A stretch of 41,303 bases of DNA from a virus. The position numbers and the translations under genes are program-made. A model generated the notes under the pieces. It was not told the DNA's origin. It searched no databases and worked only from the letters and a program-made list of their open reading frames with translations. Positions within the stretch are counted from its first letter, which is position 1. Each line of letters starts with the position of its first letter. The stretch covers positions 1 to 41,303 of IMG/VR virus record IMGVR_UViG_3300009169_000006; one strand, 5' to 3'. Positions 18,245 through 41,303 of the stretch are shown here, piece by piece.

Positions 18245-18628
18245 ATGGCAAATACGATGACAGCAATGAGAGCAACACATGATCCTATTAGGGAATTGAT
18301 ATGGAGCGAAATTGGATTTGATTGGACCCCAATAGATACTCCACTAACTCATCCAGCTCGATTAGTAGTTTTACAAAATTGGACTGATTCAGATCTCATG
18401 ATTAGTACGAAGTGGACTGATCTTCTAATAGATCCAGATTATGGAGAGATTGCCCTTAAGGCCAGTTCTCATCGCGTACTTGATATAAGTTCAAATAACT
18501 TTTCTACGCAAACTGGTGGCATCTTTGCCTATCCAGCAGGTACTCAGTTTTGGGTTAGATGGATAGATATTGCGCCTACAATCCAAAGTCTTTATCTGGA
18601 AGTTATTTATGGGGAAGATTTATTATGA
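18245..18628 (+). CDS. Small beta-rich virion protein, paralogue 3 of 3 (127 aa)
   Basis: Contains ARLVVLQNWTDSDLMISTKWT, ASSHRVLDISSNN and AGTQFWVRWIDI. It follows the layout of the two previous genes but has diverged furthest, with WT in place of the YD of LVSYD. Ribosome-binding site AAAGGAG. Its stop overlaps the next gene's ATG (ATGA). Confidence 0.5.
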   Translation: MANTMTAMRATHDPIRELIWSEIGFDWTPIDTPLTHPARLVVLQNWTDSDLMISTKWTDLLIDPDYGEIALKASSHRVLDISSNNFSTQTGGIFAYPAGTQFWVRWIDIAPTIQSLYLEVIYGEDLL

Positions 18629-19917
18629 GCCAAATAACCTTTTTTAATGGTTTCGGACCTGTACCACCTGGAGCAGTTCTTAGAGTTAATACTCCAGCAG
18701 GATTTGCAACACCTGACGCTGGTGGAATAATCAATCTTAATCCAGGTGCAAACATTATTACGAGAGGTAATAATGCCCATTCACTTTCCGTTGAAGTAAC
18801 AGATTCTATATATTTACCAGCGACTGAAGGTCCTGATGGCACTGGACTATCAAAAGGCGTATATGGGATAGAAGACACAAGAGTACTTCATACTATGGGC
18901 GGCTTAGCCCTTAGGAATGTTTTTGTAGGATTTAGAGCTGGCAATCTTAATGCTGGCCTTGTAGGAGAGGGTAATACATCTTGTGGTACTCAGTCTTTGG
19001 CTCTTTTAACTTCTGGTAATGGGAATTGTGCTTTTGGAGCTTCATCGTTATCTACAAACGACGTAGGGTTCAACAATTGCGCATATGGTGACGGGTCTCT
19101 TGCTGCAAATATTGATGGAGAAAACAATTGCGCATATGGTCATTTGTCATTATTTAGTAATTCAAGCGGATCGAGGAACATATCGATTGGTAGCGCTTCT
19201 TCTTTCGATATGGATATTGATGCTAATGATAATATAGTTATCGGAAACCGTGGAAATACTGGGATCAACAATACTATTATTATAGGTGATAGTGCCAGTC
19301 AAGATGCCAACTATCAAGCAGGAATATATCAAAAGACTGTTGGCACTACAAACGAAAATGTGGTTATAGACAGCGTAGGTAAACTTGGTACTTCTGGACC
19401 AGTTTGCGGGTCTTATGGATTCCTAGCAACAATAGATGCTGATCTTCCAGCAAATCTGGCTCCGCACTTTGGATATTTCCTAGGAAGAGGCGTATTTGCG
19501 TTAACGCCAAAATACGATAATTCACTCGGTGCGTTCTATATAGGCGATGCTATTTTAGAAGCAAGTTATACAGCTCCAATAACTGGATTGTATTCTTTCA
19601 CATATAATCTTGTTTTGCACAATGTGAAAGTAACCAATTCTACTAACTGCTGGATGCTACTTGGAACAGGTATAGTTGGACAGCCTGGCGCATTTGCTTC
19701 ATGGTCACCTTATTACATGGGGGCAGGTAATCAAATAGGTTCAGCAAATCAAGCAACTTTAAGAGGTATGTACTCTTTTACTCAACAAATTTATTTAACA
19801 ATCGGTCAGCAGGTTTTATTTAGATTCTTTCCATATGCTGCAAACATGGGTTCTGAAACAGCAGATCTAGGGCTGGGTCAATATACAAGTATTTCAGGAT
19901 ATTTAGTTCACACATAA
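18625..19917 (+). CDS. Tail fibre with YadA-head-like repeats and C1q-like tip (430 aa)
   Basis: I choose the ATG at 18625, which overlaps the upstream stop and follows GGGGAAG. Residues about 115-200 carry repeats of the type N-x-x-x-G-x-x-[SA]-L (GNTSCGTQSLALL, GNCAFGASSLST, NNCAYGDGSLAAN, NNCAYGHLSLFSN), the left-handed beta-roll of trimeric YadA heads. Then comes NYQAGIYQKTVGTTNENVVI and DSVGKLGT, a known fibre linker motif. The last 130 residues (ALTPKYDNSLGAFY, TAPITGLYSFTYNL) resemble a C1q-like jelly roll. It is likely a trimeric receptor-binding fibre. Confidence 0.65.
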   Translation: MSQITFFNGFGPVPPGAVLRVNTPAGFATPDAGGIINLNPGANIITRGNNAHSLSVEVTDSIYLPATEGPDGTGLSKGVYGIEDTRVLHTMGGLALRNVFVGFRAGNLNAGLVGEGNTSCGTQSLALLTSGNGNCAFGASSLSTNDVGFNNCAYGDGSLAANIDGENNCAYGHLSLFSNSSGSRNISIGSASSFDMDIDANDNIVIGNRGNTGINNTIIIGDSASQDANYQAGIYQKTVGTTNENVVIDSVGKLGTSGPVCGSYGFLATIDADLPANLAPHFGYFLGRGVFALTPKYDNSLGAFYIGDAILEASYTAPITGLYSFTYNLVLHNVKVTNSTNCWMLLGTGIVGQPGAFASWSPYYMGAGNQIGSANQATLRGMYSFTQQIYLTIGQQVLFRFFPYAANMGSETADLGLGQYTSISGYLVHT

Positions 19918-19972: not shown

Positions 19973-20524
19973 ATGCCTAAATTATACACAAAAAGAGTGG
20001 CGTACGGATTAACACCACCTAATATTAATATAGTAGAATCTCCAAAACAAGCGTTTAGTGATCCTACAGTTAATGATCGTTATGATGCAGGTCAATTATG
20101 GCTTAACCAGACTGATAATACTGCTTGGCTATTAGTATCATATACGGGTGGTATACCTATTTGGATCCAGATAGATAATTCGAACATCACTGGAGTAGCT
20201 TGGGTTATATCAGCGAATAATGCTATAGCAGCTGCAAATAACACTGGTTATATAGTAACTGGCAACCCACCGGCAATTACATTACCTGCAAATTCACCAG
20301 TTGGAACCATTATCCAAGTAGTTGGAAGAGGCGCAAATAACTGGCAAATACTTACAAATGCAGGACAACGCATTGTATTCAATGGTGTTACTAGTCTTGC
20401 AGGTGCTGGTGTTCGATTAGTAGCTACACATGCAGGTGATACATTAACACTTACTACAACAGTTGCAGACGTAGAATTTACCGTAATACAAACAAATGAC
20501 AACCTTAACCTTATCACTGTTTAA
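19973..20524 (+). CDS. Fibre-associated protein with shared C-terminal domain (183 aa)
   Basis: The N-terminal 75 residues include AGQLWLNQTDNTAWLLVSYTGG, a motif seen in fibre and collar proteins. The C-terminal 105 residues (WVISANNAIAAANNTGYIV ... LPANSPVGTIIQVVGRGANNWQI ... TNDNLNLITV) match the C-terminal domains of the next two genes: gap-free L-P-A-x-S-x-V-G, V-x-G-x-G-x-x-x-W-x-I and a final N-L-x-x-[IV]-x-V. It is likely a tip or cap domain that can be swapped between fibres. Confidence 0.6.
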   Translation: MPKLYTKRVAYGLTPPNINIVESPKQAFSDPTVNDRYDAGQLWLNQTDNTAWLLVSYTGGIPIWIQIDNSNITGVAWVISANNAIAAANNTGYIVTGNPPAITLPANSPVGTIIQVVGRGANNWQILTNAGQRIVFNGVTSLAGAGVRLVATHAGDTLTLTTTVADVEFTVIQTNDNLNLITV

Positions 20525-20564: not shown

Positions 20565-22301
20565 ATGCCTTTTTTAAATATGACAAATAACTACCAATCA
20601 AGTAAATACATCGTAGACGTTGCTGGCGATACCCCATTTGCAACTATACAGTCAGCTATTGACCAAGTGTTAATAGATTTTGGTGGTGCGCCAGCAGCTG
20701 GCGTTAATATTGAAATTAGACCAGGTACATATACAGAAAACCTCATTCTCGATAACAACATCAACCTTAGTGGATGTACTGATGTTATCGGAACAGGCAC
20801 AGCTGGTTCAGCGATTGCTCAAGTTGTTATTGATGGTATCCATTTCCCTCCAGGAACAGGCTCAATAGTATTTTCTAATATTAAGTTCGTTACTGCGACA
20901 TCTGTTTTATCTGAAGTAGCAGCAGATTCAACCAATATAGCATTCTACAACTGCGTTTTCGCTTGTGCTAATGGATATGTCTGTGATCTTCTTAATTACA
21001 CTGGTGATATTACTTTTGAGTCTTGCAGTGATATCTCGGCAGACAATGGTATTGTTAACAATACAGGTGGTTCTGCAGTCGATGTTAAAGACTCGCAACT
21101 TGGAGCCACTGGTCATACCCTATCTTTAACAGGTCCAACAAGAATATTTAACAGTCGTATATTCTGTCCAGTGTCGTTTACAACTGCTACAGCAGTCGCA
21201 CAAATACAAGATTCGACCATTGATGCATTGATTACAATAGATAATCTTGCTGATGTTTCTATCTATAACTCGTATTTGCACAATACCGCAGCATGTATTA
21301 CTACCGCTTCAGCCGTAGGCACTCCATTAAAACTCGGTAACGTTGTCATTGATACCCCTGTAGTTGGCGATGCTATTGAAGGTACTGGTTCAATTAGCAT
21401 GGGTGGTGTAGTTTACATGGAAACTTCAGCCATAGCAGGAACTTTGACAGTATCTACACTTGATGTATTAGCTTCAAGTTTGCTTCGCACCTATGGCAAT
21501 ATTGAGATGCCTGCAACGAATGCAGCAGGATCTAGAGGCGTACTATATCTTGATGCTGCTCCATTTGTTCAATCTCTAGGTACAAACAACACTTTTGTAG
21601 GTGAAGAAGCTGCCAATCTTACTTTGACAGTTGCCAATGCTACAGATGACACTGCACTTGGATATCAAGCCCTTCATCACGTTACCACGGGGCAACAGAA
21701 TACAAGCATTGGGTCTTCAAGCCTTCATATTACAACTGGGTCAAACAACGTCGCAATCGGATATAATGCGGGTTCTGCTTTAGTAGCGGCTGAATCTGGC
21801 AATATCATGATTGACTCCGTTGGTGTGATTGGAGATGCAACAACTACTAGAATTGGTACGGCACAAACAGCTAACTACCAAGCAGGCATCTATCAAGCTA
21901 CAAGTGGTGCGGTAAAAGAAGTCGTATATGTGGATAATACGGGCAAACTCTCATCTTCTAACCTTGGTGTTGCTCAATGGACTACAGCAACAGCATCGCT
22001 TAATGCTGCTGTAAATACTGCTTACCTCGTTAAGATGGCTATACCAGGGTTGTGTACAATAACGCTTCCAGCCGTATCGGCAGTTGGTGACGTTATCGAA
22101 ATAACTGGATATACCGTAGGTGGCTGGTTACTAGCTCAAGGTGCTTTGCAGCAGGTCAACTTTATTGCAGCTTCGACTACTTTGGGTGCTGGTGGCTCAT
22201 TAGCTTCAACACAGCGTTATGACAGTATCAAGATCGTATGTGTTACTGCAAACACTGATTGGAACGTGCTTTCATCGTCGGGAAACATCACAATCGTTTA
22301 A
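20565..22301 (+). CDS. Tail fibre/spike: beta-helix, YadA-like repeats and shared C-terminal domain (578 aa)
   Basis: Residues about 15-75 (DTPFATIQSAIDQVLIDFGG ... IRPGTYTENLIL) are a pectin-lyase-type beta-helix start, followed by helix-like rungs to about residue 330. Residues 340-405 (NTFVGEEAANL, DTALGYQALHHV, NTSIGSSSLHIT, NNVAIGYNAGSA) are YadA-head-like repeats. NYQAGIYQATSG and DNTGKLSSS form the linker. The last 105 residues share the C-terminal domain of its neighbours. No catalytic residues for a depolymerase can be claimed. It is probably a trimeric spike. Confidence 0.65.
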   Translation: MPFLNMTNNYQSSKYIVDVAGDTPFATIQSAIDQVLIDFGGAPAAGVNIEIRPGTYTENLILDNNINLSGCTDVIGTGTAGSAIAQVVIDGIHFPPGTGSIVFSNIKFVTATSVLSEVAADSTNIAFYNCVFACANGYVCDLLNYTGDITFESCSDISADNGIVNNTGGSAVDVKDSQLGATGHTLSLTGPTRIFNSRIFCPVSFTTATAVAQIQDSTIDALITIDNLADVSIYNSYLHNTAACITTASAVGTPLKLGNVVIDTPVVGDAIEGTGSISMGGVVYMETSAIAGTLTVSTLDVLASSLLRTYGNIEMPATNAAGSRGVLYLDAAPFVQSLGTNNTFVGEEAANLTLTVANATDDTALGYQALHHVTTGQQNTSIGSSSLHITTGSNNVAIGYNAGSALVAAESGNIMIDSVGVIGDATTTRIGTAQTANYQAGIYQATSGAVKEVVYVDNTGKLSSSNLGVAQWTTATASLNAAVNTAYLVKMAIPGLCTITLPAVSAVGDVIEITGYTVGGWLLAQGALQQVNFIAASTTLGAGGSLASTQRYDSIKIVCVTANTDWNVLSSSGNITIV

Positions 22302-22315
22302 TATAAGGAACTACA

Positions 22316-22915
22316 ATGGCAACACAAAACTCAATTAATAATCATGCATATACACTTGTTACAGACACTGCTATTACAGCAGATACAGGTAATATCACAG
22401 CTACACTGGGTAATATAGTTATCACCAATGGTATGTTGTCAGTTGGGGGTGTAACTGGAACCGATGGTCAGGTCTTACTAGCAGCGACAGCGGCAAACCC
22501 AGCTTGGGGGTCTATTTCAGCTGGTTCTGGTATAACTGTCACTCCAGGTGTTAATACTTTGTCTATAGCATCAACAGTAGTACCAGGTATTAGCTGGTCT
22601 CAAGTTGGTGTTGATGGTGCATTAGTAGTTGATACTGGAATCGTTAACAGCAAGGCAGCCTTGTTGACAATGTCACTACCTGCCGTATCGCCTATTAACT
22701 CCATAGTCAAAATAGTAGGTTGGGGTGCCGGAGGATGGATAATAACCCAGGCAGCTAACCAACAGATATTATTTGGCAATACTAATACAACATTAGGCGC
22801 TGGTGGCTCACTTGCCTCAAGTAATGCTGGAGACACAGTAGAGCTTATATGTGTAGTTGCAGACTTAGTATGGCGTGTCATGACAGGACCTGTTGGCAAT
22901 CTGACAGTTGTATAA
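22316..22915 (+). CDS. Fibre protein with MATxN-type N-terminus and shared C-terminal domain (199 aa)
   Basis: The N-terminus MATQNSINN resembles the MATNNAIN anchor of the six genes downstream. The middle has GTDGQVLLAATAANPAWGSI, a frequent fibre motif. The C-terminal 105 residues (MSLPAVSPINSIVKIVGWGAGGW ... VGNLTVV) match those of the two previous genes. It therefore combines parts of both neighbouring groups. Ribosome-binding site AAGGAA. Confidence 0.6.
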   Translation: MATQNSINNHAYTLVTDTAITADTGNITATLGNIVITNGMLSVGGVTGTDGQVLLAATAANPAWGSISAGSGITVTPGVNTLSIASTVVPGISWSQVGVDGALVVDTGIVNSKAALLTMSLPAVSPINSIVKIVGWGAGGWIITQAANQQILFGNTNTTLGAGGSLASSNAGDTVELICVVADLVWRVMTGPVGNLTVV

Positions 22916-22934
22916 TTGAAACAAATATATAATT

Positions 22935-22972
22935 AAGCCCCTGGATGCATCATGGCTGAAGGGGGCTTTTTT
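22935..22972 (+). terminator. Intrinsic terminator after the fibre genes
   Basis: AGCCCC (22936-22941) pairs with GGGGCT (22962-22967) and is followed by a run of six T. It separates the fibre genes from the six C1q-like genes, which therefore depend on readthrough or on their own promoter. Confidence 0.75.
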
Positions 22973-22984
22973 AAAAGGTGAAAC

Positions 22985-23455
22985 ATGGCAACAAACAATG
23001 CGATTAACAACCCAAAGATCATGTTCTTTGCATATCTTAATGCATCGACTGGAGCGGTTACTGGTGACGCTACAGTATACTCAATAGCTTACGATCGAGT
23101 CTTATATGACTCAACTGCCAGCATGAACTTAGCTACTGGAGCATATCTGGTACCAAAAACAGGCAAATATTTTCTAACATTTACAACGCTTCTAGGTGGT
23201 CTAGCAGCTCATACATCAGCTAATTATTATATGTCAGTTGCTGGCGTTTTGGATTGGAATGGTGCCCTTATAAATCCAGGAGTTGTTGATCAAGCTGGTT
23301 TATTAAGTTTAACTGATGCGGCGATAGTTAATTTAACTGCTGGTCAATCCGTTATAGTGACAGGGAACGTAGCAGGCGGAGCTAAATCAGTTACCATACA
23401 ATCAGGCGGCGCAGCTAGTCCTCAATCATGGTTTTGCGGATTCTTAATTGATTAA
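22985..23455 (+). CDS. C1q-like small adhesin, paralogue 1 of 6 (156 aa)
   Basis: First of six tandem genes sharing the N-terminal octapeptide MATNNAIN and a C1q/TNF-like jelly-roll pattern: FFAYLNASTGAVTGD, an aromatic strand before TGKYFLTFTTLLGG, and a final AGGAKSVTIQSGG...WFCGFLI. The conserved tag is probably a docking peptide for the virion, while the body varies. Expected to be a trimeric surface adhesin; enzymatic motifs are absent. Ribosome-binding site AAAGGTG. Confidence 0.6.
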   Translation: MATNNAINNPKIMFFAYLNASTGAVTGDATVYSIAYDRVLYDSTASMNLATGAYLVPKTGKYFLTFTTLLGGLAAHTSANYYMSVAGVLDWNGALINPGVVDQAGLLSLTDAAIVNLTAGQSVIVTGNVAGGAKSVTIQSGGAASPQSWFCGFLID

Positions 23456-23464
23456 GGAGATATT

Positions 23465-23932
23465 ATGGCAACAAATAACGCAGTTAATTTTAAAAAACCA
23501 TTTCCATCGTTTTACGCGTATGCAAGTGCTGATGTGGCAAATGTAACTGGTGATGGTACAGTTGTGACTCTTCCTCTGAATAGTACATTACATAATGTTA
23601 CAACATCCTATAGCACGGCTACGTACACATTCACTGCCGATAGAACAGGCAAATTTTTAGTAGCATCGCAGCTATTTCTAGGTGAGCTTGTGGGTCATTC
23701 TTCTGTGGATTTCACTATAGTTACAACAGCTAGAAACTATGCTGTTACTGCAAATTTGACACCTATGGCAAGTGGCGCAACAACAGTATGCGGATTCCAA
23801 AACATAGCTCTGGTAGATATGACAGCAGGAGACACTTTGTATTTGACGGCTGCATGCGGTGGAGGTGGAAAAACGGTAGATCTTATAGGTCTAAAATATT
23901 ACTCATATTTATCATGTAGCTATATAGGTTAA
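23465..23932 (+). CDS. C1q-like small adhesin, paralogue 2 of 6 (155 aa)
   Basis: Starts MATNNAVNFKK, has FYAYASADVANVTGDGTV, DRTGKFLVASQLFLGEL and a C-terminal CGGGGKTVDLIGL. Same layout as the flanking paralogues, with AV in place of AI in the tag. It is separated from its neighbours by only 9 nt on each side, each gap carrying AAGGAG. Confidence 0.6.
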   Translation: MATNNAVNFKKPFPSFYAYASADVANVTGDGTVVTLPLNSTLHNVTTSYSTATYTFTADRTGKFLVASQLFLGELVGHSSVDFTIVTTARNYAVTANLTPMASGATTVCGFQNIALVDMTAGDTLYLTAACGGGGKTVDLIGLKYYSYLSCSYIG

Positions 23933-23941
23933 GGAGAAACC

Positions 23942-24412
23942 ATGGCAACAAACAATGCAATAAATCAGCATAAACCTATCCCTTTATTTTTTGCATATAT
24001 GGCTGCATCAACAGGAGCAGTCACAGGTGATGGGACAACTGTTAAGGTACCATACGATTCAACATTATTTAATGATGGAAGTTTCAACACAGCGACCTAT
24101 GAATTCATAGCACCAAGTAACGGTATATATTTATTGAATACTGGAATTATTGCTGATAATGCTAACGGCAAAACGTCTGCAGGGATTCAGTTTTATATAA
24201 ATGGCGTCCTTTTCAACGCATATGGCTGTAACCCTAATTTAATAACAGTAGGCGGATCATATAGTAAGAACGTTAACTGTATTGTTGAAATGACTGCTGC
24301 ACAATCAGCATACCTTATTTTTTATGTAGCAGGTGGCGCTAAAAACTGTGCAATTATTAGTGCAGGCGCTGCTAACCCAAGAACGTGGTTCTCAGCAACT
24401 CTAATAGGATGA
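23942..24412 (+). CDS. C1q-like small adhesin, paralogue 3 of 6 (156 aa)
   Basis: Starts MATNNAINQHK, has FFAYMAASTGAVTGDGTTV, a PSNGIYLLNTGII strand pair and AGGAKNCAIISAG near the end. The segment MAASTGAVTGDGT is closest to paralogue 1. Its TGA stop is one of few TGA stops in the window. Confidence 0.6.
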   Translation: MATNNAINQHKPIPLFFAYMAASTGAVTGDGTTVKVPYDSTLFNDGSFNTATYEFIAPSNGIYLLNTGIIADNANGKTSAGIQFYINGVLFNAYGCNPNLITVGGSYSKNVNCIVEMTAAQSAYLIFYVAGGAKNCAIISAGAANPRTWFSATLIG

Positions 24413-24414
24413 CT

Positions 24415-24900
24415 ATGGCAACAAATAACGCAATAAACCAAATCGGCGTGCTGCCTTCATTTATGGCTGTTCAAAATGCCGACCAAGCAAGCGTGACTGG
24501 TGATGGGAGTGTTTACGTACCACAATTTACTAATGTTGTTTATAATGCAACAAGTTCATTTGATGGAACTTCTACTTTTACTGCACCACTAACAGGCAAA
24601 TATTGTTTCGGTGTCCATTTTCAATTTACAAATGTAGCAGCTGGTATGACTATTGGATATTGTCAGTTAATTACTACATTAGCTACATATAATTTATTTT
24701 TTTTAAACCCAGGAACTATGAGAGCCGCTAACAATATACTTACAATACAAAATTCTATTATAGTGCCTATGACTGCTACTAATACAGCATCATTAAATAT
24801 TGCCTTTTTGAATGGTGCAAAAGCAGTAACTATACAAGGAGCAACAGCAGCGGCATCAAGAACTCCATTCTTCAGCGGTTATATGATTTCAGGAATTTAA
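24415..24900 (+). CDS. C1q-like small adhesin, paralogue 4 of 6 (161 aa)
   Basis: The start is set at the conserved MATNNAIN (24415), two bases after the previous stop, instead of an in-frame codon at 24385 inside the previous gene. It has FMAVQNADQASVTGDGSVY, LTGKYCFGVHFQF and FLNGAKAVTIQGATAA. It is the only copy without a clear AAGGAG in front, the nearest being AGGATG in the previous coding sequence. Confidence 0.6.
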   Translation: MATNNAINQIGVLPSFMAVQNADQASVTGDGSVYVPQFTNVVYNATSSFDGTSTFTAPLTGKYCFGVHFQFTNVAAGMTIGYCQLITTLATYNLFFLNPGTMRAANNILTIQNSIIVPMTATNTASLNIAFLNGAKAVTIQGATAAASRTPFFSGYMISGI

Positions 24901-24910
24901 CGGAGAAACT

Positions 24911-25384
24911 ATGGCAACAAATAATGCAATAAATTATAGACCAATATCATGGTTCGTTTACCCAAGTATAGACACCGACGATCAAACTGGTGATGGCACT
25001 GGGATAAGTCCTTTTTTTGATACGACTAAGTTTTTAATTGGTGGAGCTACTTTTTTTGGTCATCAAATTGGTGCGCCTGTTGCTGGATATTACATGATTA
25101 ATGCACAAGTTACGTTTGGAAATGTCGCAGCTCATACAGCAGCGAGCATCAATATATTGAATACAACAACGGGAGAACAATCAACTCCATGCGAATGTAA
25201 TCCGTCTGTTTTGAAAGATTCAAGTGATAAGTTCATGTTAAGCACACAGGCTGTTTTTTATTTAAATGTAGGTGATTTTATAGGTGTTACATGCGTTGTT
25301 AGTGGTGGAGCTAAAACGGTTGATTTATTGAGTGGTATCGCTAGTGAACCATTAACATGGTTTTCAGGGGCAATTTTAATATAA
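24911..25384 (+). CDS. C1q-like small adhesin, paralogue 5 of 6 (157 aa)
   Basis: Starts MATNNAINYRPI, has FVYPSIDTDDQTGDGTG, APVAGYYMINAQVTFGN and SGGAKTVDLLSGI before WFSGAILI. It fits the C1q-like strand order of the others but has diverged in the first strand. Ribosome-binding site CGGAGA. Confidence 0.6.
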   Translation: MATNNAINYRPISWFVYPSIDTDDQTGDGTGISPFFDTTKFLIGGATFFGHQIGAPVAGYYMINAQVTFGNVAAHTAASINILNTTTGEQSTPCECNPSVLKDSSDKFMLSTQAVFYLNVGDFIGVTCVVSGGAKTVDLLSGIASEPLTWFSGAILI

Positions 25385-25392
25385 GGGAAAAC

Positions 25393-25863
25393 ATGGCAAC
25401 AAATAATGCAATTAATTTAGCAAAGCCTTATCCATTATTTTTTGGATATTACAGTGCAACAACAGCAGCGATTACTGGTGATGGTACGCTGTTTCCGCTT
25501 GCTTTTGATACAGACAAATTCGATCTTGGCGGCAATCTTCTTAACGGAGTCGTGACGATACCTACGACTGGCAAATACTATATATATGTAACTACTCAAT
25601 TAGGCTCTTTGGCTGTTGGGCATACATCATGCTTGCTGCAAGTAGGTTTAGCAGGTAACTATTTGGATGGTGGTTATGTCAACATAGGAGCAATACGTGA
25701 TTCAGCTGATACAGCATCAGTTTCAGTATGTGGTCTTATGGATTTTACAGCAGCAGATATCGTGCAAGCATCAATAACGGTGACAGGAGCTGCTAAGGCA
25801 GTAACAGTTATCGGCGCAGCTACATATAGCTCGTACATATGCGGTTATTTGATTAATAGTTAA
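25393..25863 (+). CDS. C1q-like small adhesin, paralogue 6 of 6 (156 aa)
   Basis: Start set at the MATNNAIN codon at 25393 after AAGGGAAA; a longer in-frame start at 25357 lies inside the previous gene. It has FFGYYSATTAAITGDGTLF, TTGKYYIYVTTQLGSL and TGAAKAVTVIGAAT, and ends YICGYLINS. It is the last gene of the rightward late block and is followed by a hairpin terminator facing the other way. Confidence 0.6.
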   Translation: MATNNAINLAKPYPLFFGYYSATTAAITGDGTLFPLAFDTDKFDLGGNLLNGVVTIPTTGKYYIYVTTQLGSLAVGHTSCLLQVGLAGNYLDGGYVNIGAIRDSADTASVSVCGLMDFTAADIVQASITVTGAAKAVTVIGAATYSSYICGYLINS

Positions 25864-25866
25864 AAA

Positions 25867-25895
25867 CCCAGTGCAGCAGGATCAACTGCACTGGG
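25867..25895 (-). terminator. Terminator of the leftward recombination operon
   Basis: CCCAGTGCAG (25867-25876) and CTGCACTGGG (25886-25895) form a perfect 10-bp stem with a 9-nt loop. On the minus strand it is followed by TTTTTA, giving a good intrinsic terminator for the leftward genes that end at 25925. On the plus strand A-runs follow, so it is weaker for the late operon. Confidence 0.75.
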
Positions 25896-40675: not shown

Positions 40676-41303
40676 ATGATCTTTCCCGATGAAGCCCTAC
40701 GTTATGCAGACCCAGCCCATCGCATAGTGCTGCAAAGGGTAGAAAACTTTTATGCTGGTGCGATAACGCATAACCAAACATTTTGGGCCGAAGCTAATAT
40801 AGACACTCAGTTTCTTACTGGCTCTCAAGATTATTACAATACTCTTTACGGTCCTCCATTCCCTGGCAAGCGTAAGAACTTCTATTTCAATCATATTCGC
40901 CCTATAGTAAATCAAATAACAGGTAGGCAACGGCAACAGCGTAAAACTACTGTCGTTCTGCCACAGCTCAATGCAGATGATTTAACAGCTGATCAATTAT
41001 CAAAAGTTATGATGTGGGTACATGAAAACGCAAACATTTACGAATCTATTTCTCAAGCTTTTTATGGAGCATGTACAACAGGGTTATCGTTGCTTCATGT
41101 ATATATGGACTATCGTTCTGATTGTATCAGTGGTGATATACGCGTTGACGTGTGCCCATACAATTCTTACATAATAGATCCATTCTTTACCAAGACAGAC
41201 TTCTCAGACTGTGCAGCTCTCTGGAAGAGATCTTACTTAACCCGTCGTGAAGTGATGAGCTTACTACCATCATACTCAGATCTTATATTGGATATCCCTA
41301 TAA
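40676..41303 (+). CDS. Portal protein, N-terminal part (gene continues at 1..1565)
   Basis: ATG at 40676 with ACGGAG upstream. The N-terminal part contains RVENFYAGAITHNQTFWAEA, FPGKRKNFYFNHIRPIVNQI, GRQRQQRKTTVVLPQLN and IRVDVCPYNSYIIDPFF, the order of motifs found in P22-type portals. The frame runs without stop to the window end, and 41181-41303 repeats 1-123, so this and the feature at 1-1565 are one 689-residue protein. No promoter of high quality is seen in the 127-nt gap after the terminase. Confidence 0.85.
   Translation, partial: MIFPDEALRYADPAHRIVLQRVENFYAGAITHNQTFWAEANIDTQFLTGSQDYYNTLYGPPFPGKRKNFYFNHIRPIVNQITGRQRQQRKTTVVLPQLNADDLTADQLSKVMMWVHENANIYESISQAFYGACTTGLSLLHVYMDYRSDCISGDIRVDVCPYNSYIIDPFFTKTDFSDCAALWKRSYLTRREVMSLLPSYSDLILDIPI
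41181..41303 (+). repeat. Terminal 123-bp direct repeat of bases 1-123
   Basis: The last 123 bases equal the first 123. They lie inside the portal coding sequence and continue the frame, which fits an assembly overlap of a circular or circularly permuted genome better than a natural terminal repeat. The unit length would be 41180 bp. Confidence 0.9.

Follow-up and report, generated by a model that had tools for sequence, protein, structure and literature searches.

The stretch of DNA analysed here, below called the window, comprises 41,303 bases and is a virus record of IMG/VR. On its plus strand six genes of 155-161 codons, C1 to C6, follow each other in tandem between positions 22985 and 25863 (Table 1), directly downstream of a group of tail fibre genes. 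Their proteins are 156, 155, 156, 161, 157 and 156 amino acids long and the gaps between the genes are 9, 9, 2, 10 and 8 nt, so the first-pass annotation, which described six tandem genes of this size with gaps of 2-10 nt, is borne out by the ORF coordinates. All six reading frames are open and intact. The ORF list had earlier starts for C4 and C6 (24385 and 25357), but the ATG of the N-terminal tag was used for both, because it agrees with the other genes of the array. The tag had been called identical in all six genes; the octapeptide MATNNAIN does open five of them, and the small correction is C2, which has MATNNAVN, leaving seven of the eight residues invariant. In pairwise comparisons the DNA of the tag is identical in 19-23 of 24 nt, while the following 24 nt agree in only 5-16, and the bodies of the proteins are 21-40% identical. 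The earlier picture of nearly identical tag DNA in front of strongly diverged bodies is thus confirmed.

The array is flanked by two hairpins. The one between gp199 and C1 is a probable terminator or attenuator; its loop exceeds the length limit of the pattern scan, and the evidence for it is the fold energy. The other is a strong two-way terminator that closes both the array and the convergent minus-strand genes. A syntenic relative, or sister, is a record of 37,915 b (G002), with identities of 49% for TerL, 47% for the portal, 46% for gp578 and 60% for gp199. Positions 40676-41303 and 72-1565 of the window each match one part of a single portal protein (702 aa) of this sister, and since both ends of the record match one portal, the record looks circularly permuted, near-complete and cut inside the portal gene.

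Table 1. Genes and hairpins of the tip array and the fibre region upstream of it
Feature	Position	Strand	Description
gp452	18625..19917	+	430 aa from MSQITFF; long fibre, repeated head-like motifs, C-terminal C1q-like domain
gp183	19973..20524	+	base protein; G HMM E 1.4e-21, residues 75-179
gp578	20565..22301	+	spike-like; G HMM E 1.2e-35, residues 471-578; PHROG tail spike
gp199	22316..22915	+	extender; N-terminal tag MATQNSIN and C-terminal G domain
hairpin and T run	22935..22970	+	between gp199 and C1; fold of 22930-22975 -18.1 kcal/mol, z -2.7
C1	22985..23455	+	tag MATNNAIN and C1q-like domain; Pfam C1q E 6e-5, 23.6 bits; C1q-fold model
C2	23465..23932	+	tag MATNNAVN and C1q-like domain; PHROG 15750 E 2e-6; body HMM E 2.2e-45
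C3	23942..24412	+	tag MATNNAIN and C1q-like domain; PHROG 15750 E 4e-7; body HMM E 5.3e-47
C4	24415..24900	+	tag MATNNAIN and C1q-like domain; PHROG 15750 E 6e-6; body HMM E 4.4e-50
C5	24911..25384	+	tag MATNNAIN and C1q-like domain; most divergent of C1-C6; body HMM E 5.1e-47
C6	25393..25863	+	tag MATNNAIN and C1q-like domain; body HMM E 7e-44
terminator hairpin	25867..25895		11 pairs on minus strand; fold z -5.1 (+), -5.6 (-)

In the AlphaFold2 model of C1 (an alignment of 22 relatives, single chain) the mean pLDDT is 86, the tag is unstructured (pLDDT 57) and the first strand begins at residue 13, about five residues past the tag. Among solved structures the model is matched best by the globular heads of C1q (Foldseek E 5e-11; VIA-align Z 18.5, 1.9 Å over 130 residues) and there are further matches to phage spikes and short tail fibres, e.g. 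of phi812 and cyanophage A-1(L), in a library comparison that lists best matches only and with which other folds remain compatible, here as well as for the G domain below. A profile of the 22 relatives retrieves C1q chains from PDB with E 1e-10 and better. The Pfam C1q family PF00386 gives C1 a score just under its gathering cut-off of 23.7 bits and the other five lower ones; four of the six also match PHROG 15750, a family of unknown function, and no match to NCBIfam was found for the six fibre-region proteins tested. The jelly-roll predicted for the bodies at first sight is thereby upheld, by a confident model and by its matches to C1q domains. By analogy with C1q the tips are presumably trimers.

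A tree of the C1q domains is mostly unresolved, with long branches of about one change per site (2.0 for the end branch of C5), and C1-C6 do not group together in it; therefore neither common descent in place nor import of single genes can be demonstrated from it. Outside the array, gp452 has a seventh C1q tip of the window at its C-terminus (E 5.7e-7 with a body-only C1q HMM; PHROG virion structural / tail spike). As this long fibre also ends in a C1q-like domain, C1-C6 look like free-standing, tagged fibre tips. The array adjoins gp578 and gp199, and such a position beside tail fibre genes is shared with the C1q domains of marine phages, which are highly variable and have been proposed as receptor-binding protein (PMC3909814). 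In phage HMO-2011 the C1q gene is single and has no tag, unlike the array here, and neither tagged tandem C1q arrays nor a socket domain are described in the passages of that paper considered here. Among named phage records we found no match to C1, and none to the extended tag in the phage collection, where a query of 27 residues makes a weak test; no paper with the tag string was found among open-licence papers.

The tag is found far beyond this phage. A degenerate MATNNAIN pattern occurs in 61 stretches of IMG/VR, compared with three for a scrambled pattern of the same residues, and in 257 Gb of cellular genomes it occurs in 17 stretches, only one of which is a long ORF initiated by the tag. 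A chance origin of the tag is ruled out by the scrambled control and the cellular genomes. The 70 tagged genes use 56 different DNA spellings for the tag, which is therefore conserved as a protein; this codon diversity also rules out that the tag acts as a signal in DNA or RNA and not as a peptide. Of 85 neighbours of tag genes, themselves unselected for the tag, 26 are tagged, compared with 11 of 488 background genes (P 1.8e-15, a value that like the one for the G loci below is too strong, as loci were counted as independent though some records are related; the effect is still large). Clustering of the last 110 residues of the 121 tagged proteins without G, all from uncultured phages, gives 53 sequence clusters, with C1q-like and glycine-rich types as well as some bodies without detectable C1q similarity.

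The tag-initiated ORF from the cellular genomes (L100, position 670) encodes a tagged glycine-rich fibre; the contig, 33.6 kb long, belongs to a metagenome bin of Methylococcaceae. The start and length of this fibre agree with those of a fibre in L057, a hint that Methylococcaceae may be a host group for some of the tagged phages. In another record (L018, 479-2686) two tandem tagged genes for glycine-rich fibres are near-identical in their first 80 residues and diverge towards the C-terminus.

Upstream of the array, gp183, gp578 and gp199 have a common C-terminal domain of about 108 residues, which we call G and which in every match ends no more than 11 residues before the end of the protein. 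The gene of gp199, at 22316, had been linked to the array by its related tag, and this link not only held but became sharper, since the protein has both a tag and a probable socket. Its model has a pLDDT of about 97 for residues 92-199 (G) and 49 for the tag. By VIA-align the fold of G matches XD1 of CBA120 TSP4 (residues 78-185, Z 11.5), T4 gp9 (Z 10.0) and T4 gp10 (residues 49-152, Z 9.4), and no sequence similarity to any of the three was detected. In T4, gp9 connects the long tail fibres to the baseplate, and the G fold is that of its middle domain; it is internal in gp9, unlike the C-terminal position here. Searches with TerL and with the G domain of gp578 found no close relatives. The only annotated phage record that matched is that of Microcoleus phage My-WqHQDG (OR578706.1, L102 7861-9303), where G forms the C-terminus of a hypothetical protein and the tag is absent within three mismatches.

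To avoid circularity, about 100 loci were retrieved by the G domain alone. Of the 131 genes that immediately follow a G gene in these loci, 76 are tagged, counted as a match in at least five of the eight residues, compared with 28 of 668 others (Fisher P 1e-46), and about 40% of the genes that follow a G gene score below five of eight. The consensus M-A-T-N-N-A-I-N also re-emerged when the ribosome-binding site, without regard to the tag, decided which start was taken, and it ended at residue 8. In 49 of 58 cassettes, with up to seven tagged genes each, a G domain is encoded by the gene that precedes the first tagged one, and tagged G proteins stand upstream of tagged proteins without G in 45 of 48 pairs. 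These counts give a cassette order of base-G, plug-G and plug-tip. G was encoded somewhere in all seven rechecked records above 30 kb, and was not recognised in a lineage of shorter records (L025, L033, L049 and L060, 5-18 kb) with tagged C1q genes. The linkage and the gene order point to G as probably the socket for the tag. The shared docking peptide of the first-pass annotation has thus gained support, from its conservation as a protein on many unrelated bodies and from its linkage to a domain of gp9/XD1 fold.

The set of tips differs between relatives. The sister phage has three C1q tips and a fourth tagged gene of another kind, compared with six C1q genes here, and no clear one-to-one orthologues were found between its tips and C1-C6. 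A different lineage includes L066, with three tagged C1q genes. The second and third of this type are found in L060 (3807-6854), and in L049 (990-3574) the first is present together with a remnant, or scar, of the third that spans about 14 codons; in both records the tagged C1q gene comes directly after a portal gene (PHROG 156). The scar implies that two C1q genes were lost in L049 without use of the tag. Aligned with L066, L025 shows 92% identity in the flank of the second gene, and the homology runs as far as nucleotide 17 of the tag; past this breakpoint L025 has a different C1q body, and homology returns after the last stop codon. An exchange at the tag has thus, judging from these alignments, very likely happened in nature at least once, and routes of turnover other than the tag exist as well, e.g. 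the deletion in L049. The gain, loss and shuffling of tips expected at the tag are therefore seen between relatives, with the break of L025 and L066 inside it, but the L049 deletion did not go via the tag. Within the window's own phage no tip exchange could be traced.

We hypothesize, and consider it fairly probable, that C1-C6 are a repertoire of tips with the tag as docking plug and G as the probable socket, and that tagged genes are swapped behind the tag. The tag, its linkage to G, the gene order and the turnover are taken from sequence and the C1q fold from prediction; trimers, the binding of plug to socket, presence in the virion and receptor binding are inferred. Each tip would be an almost shaftless domain of C1q fold that starts with the plug M-A-T-N-N-A-[I/V]-N, and through the plug a trimer of tips would dock onto the exposed end of three G domains, which would themselves form a trimer at the C-terminus of an upstream fibre protein. 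As the first strand of the C1 model begins so near to the tag, the tip would be seated right on its socket. The base proteins with sockets would be gp183 and gp578, while gp199, with a plug at its N-terminus and a socket at its C-terminus, would be an extender that lengthens the chain, and C1-C6 would be alternative or co-mounted end pieces for host recognition. Since the octapeptide seems sufficient for mounting, unrelated tips would be exchangeable behind it, and tagged genes could be gained, lost or replaced, at least sometimes via recombination inside the tag.

Elsewhere tandem C1q genes have their own variants of the tag (L140 5327-7000, L119 5340-6660, L108-L110 and L129), for instance MATINS in L140 and MAKVNAIN in L129, a pattern that would fit a joint drift of plug and socket within each phage.

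Seven proteins of the window are tagged (gp199 and C1-C6) and three carry G, among them gp199, which is itself tagged; this surplus of plugs means either specific pairing, or competing tips and differing particles. Should the tips all compete for one set of sockets, the particles released by a single infected cell would differ in their mix of the six tips, a kind of built-in bet-hedging in host recognition without a machinery for phase variation; we regard this as conceivable but somewhat doubtful. Mammalian C1q trimers are mixed from A, B and C chains, and by analogy mixed trimers of C1q tips may be formed too.

Short conserved N-terminal peptides, between 7 and about 29 residues long, are known from secondary receptor-binding proteins of K1-5, G7C, KP32 and Menlow, where they are proposed or known to dock on a gp10-like domain of the anchored protein, and where the C-terminal modules are exchanged (PMC6872550). 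The candidate receptor-binding proteins here resemble those of K1-5, G7C and KP32 in having such a peptide on unrelated bodies. The candidate socket is XD1/gp9-like and C-terminal, whereas that of K1-5 and KP32 is D2/D3-like (XD2/XD3) and internal, and there are up to seven tagged genes in a cassette, with small, adhesin-like C1q tips. Each of those phage groups also has a peptide of its own, while the one described here recurs in dozens of phages whose tips are unrelated. Because the domain linked to the tag resembles XD1 and not D2/D3, we regard the system as working like the conserved-peptide systems and not as a member of them. CBA120, with TSP1-4, is similar in having several receptor-binding proteins in one complex and an XD1 of the same fold as G (PMC8825819, PMC11414711), but there XD2 and XD3 bind the partners and XD1 is a spacer, and the partners carry XD2 or TD1 and no octapeptide.

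The role of XD1 in CBA120 speaks for a different explanation, in which the tag docks on another conserved tail protein and G is a common end piece of fibres in the same operon, perhaps a glycan binder. XD1 is described as a spacer with an incompletely understood function, which does not bind a trimer end-on, because linkers leave from both of its faces (PMC8825819). The fold binds glycans in CpaA and StcE (PMC8825819), and G itself could thus be an adhesin. Furthermore, a tagged C1q gene lies directly behind the portal gene in L049 and L060, and some records have only the tag or only G. As a terminal domain, G would on the other hand have one free face, which lifts the objection of the two linkers without being a proof, and that G and tag so strongly tend to be neighbours and to come in one order, as well as the presence of G in each of the seven rechecked records above 30 kb, argues against another socket, which we find unlikely.

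Two other explanations do without docking. The tag could be an expression signal, i.e. translation-friendly first codons that were copied together with the ribosome-binding site at duplication, which would fit that it spans the first codons, is A-rich, comes after a ribosome-binding site and is alike in DNA among C1-C6. A constant peptide with variable DNA (56 spellings in 70 genes), whose conservation ends at residue 8 and recurs in the unselected set, makes this hardly credible. It is also quite improbable that C1-C6 are recent duplicates in place, decaying or with a function outside the virion, e.g. as secreted lectins, and that the tag is a remnant of descent. The tandem layout, the similar lengths and the probable terminator between the fibre genes and C1-C6 could be seen in that way, but the six genes are all open and intact and stand ungrouped on long branches (about one change per site), and the tag is also found on bodies without detectable C1q similarity.

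If the pairing of plug and socket is true, MATNNAIN after a gene with a G domain would be a sequence rule for finding receptor-binding proteins in unannotated, uncultured phages, and a role would be suggested for the XD1/gp9 fold at the C-terminus of a protein. An octapeptide appears to be enough to mount an unrelated domain, which would let a phage acquire a new adhesin in a single step, and the natural arrays display which domains have been tried as tips.
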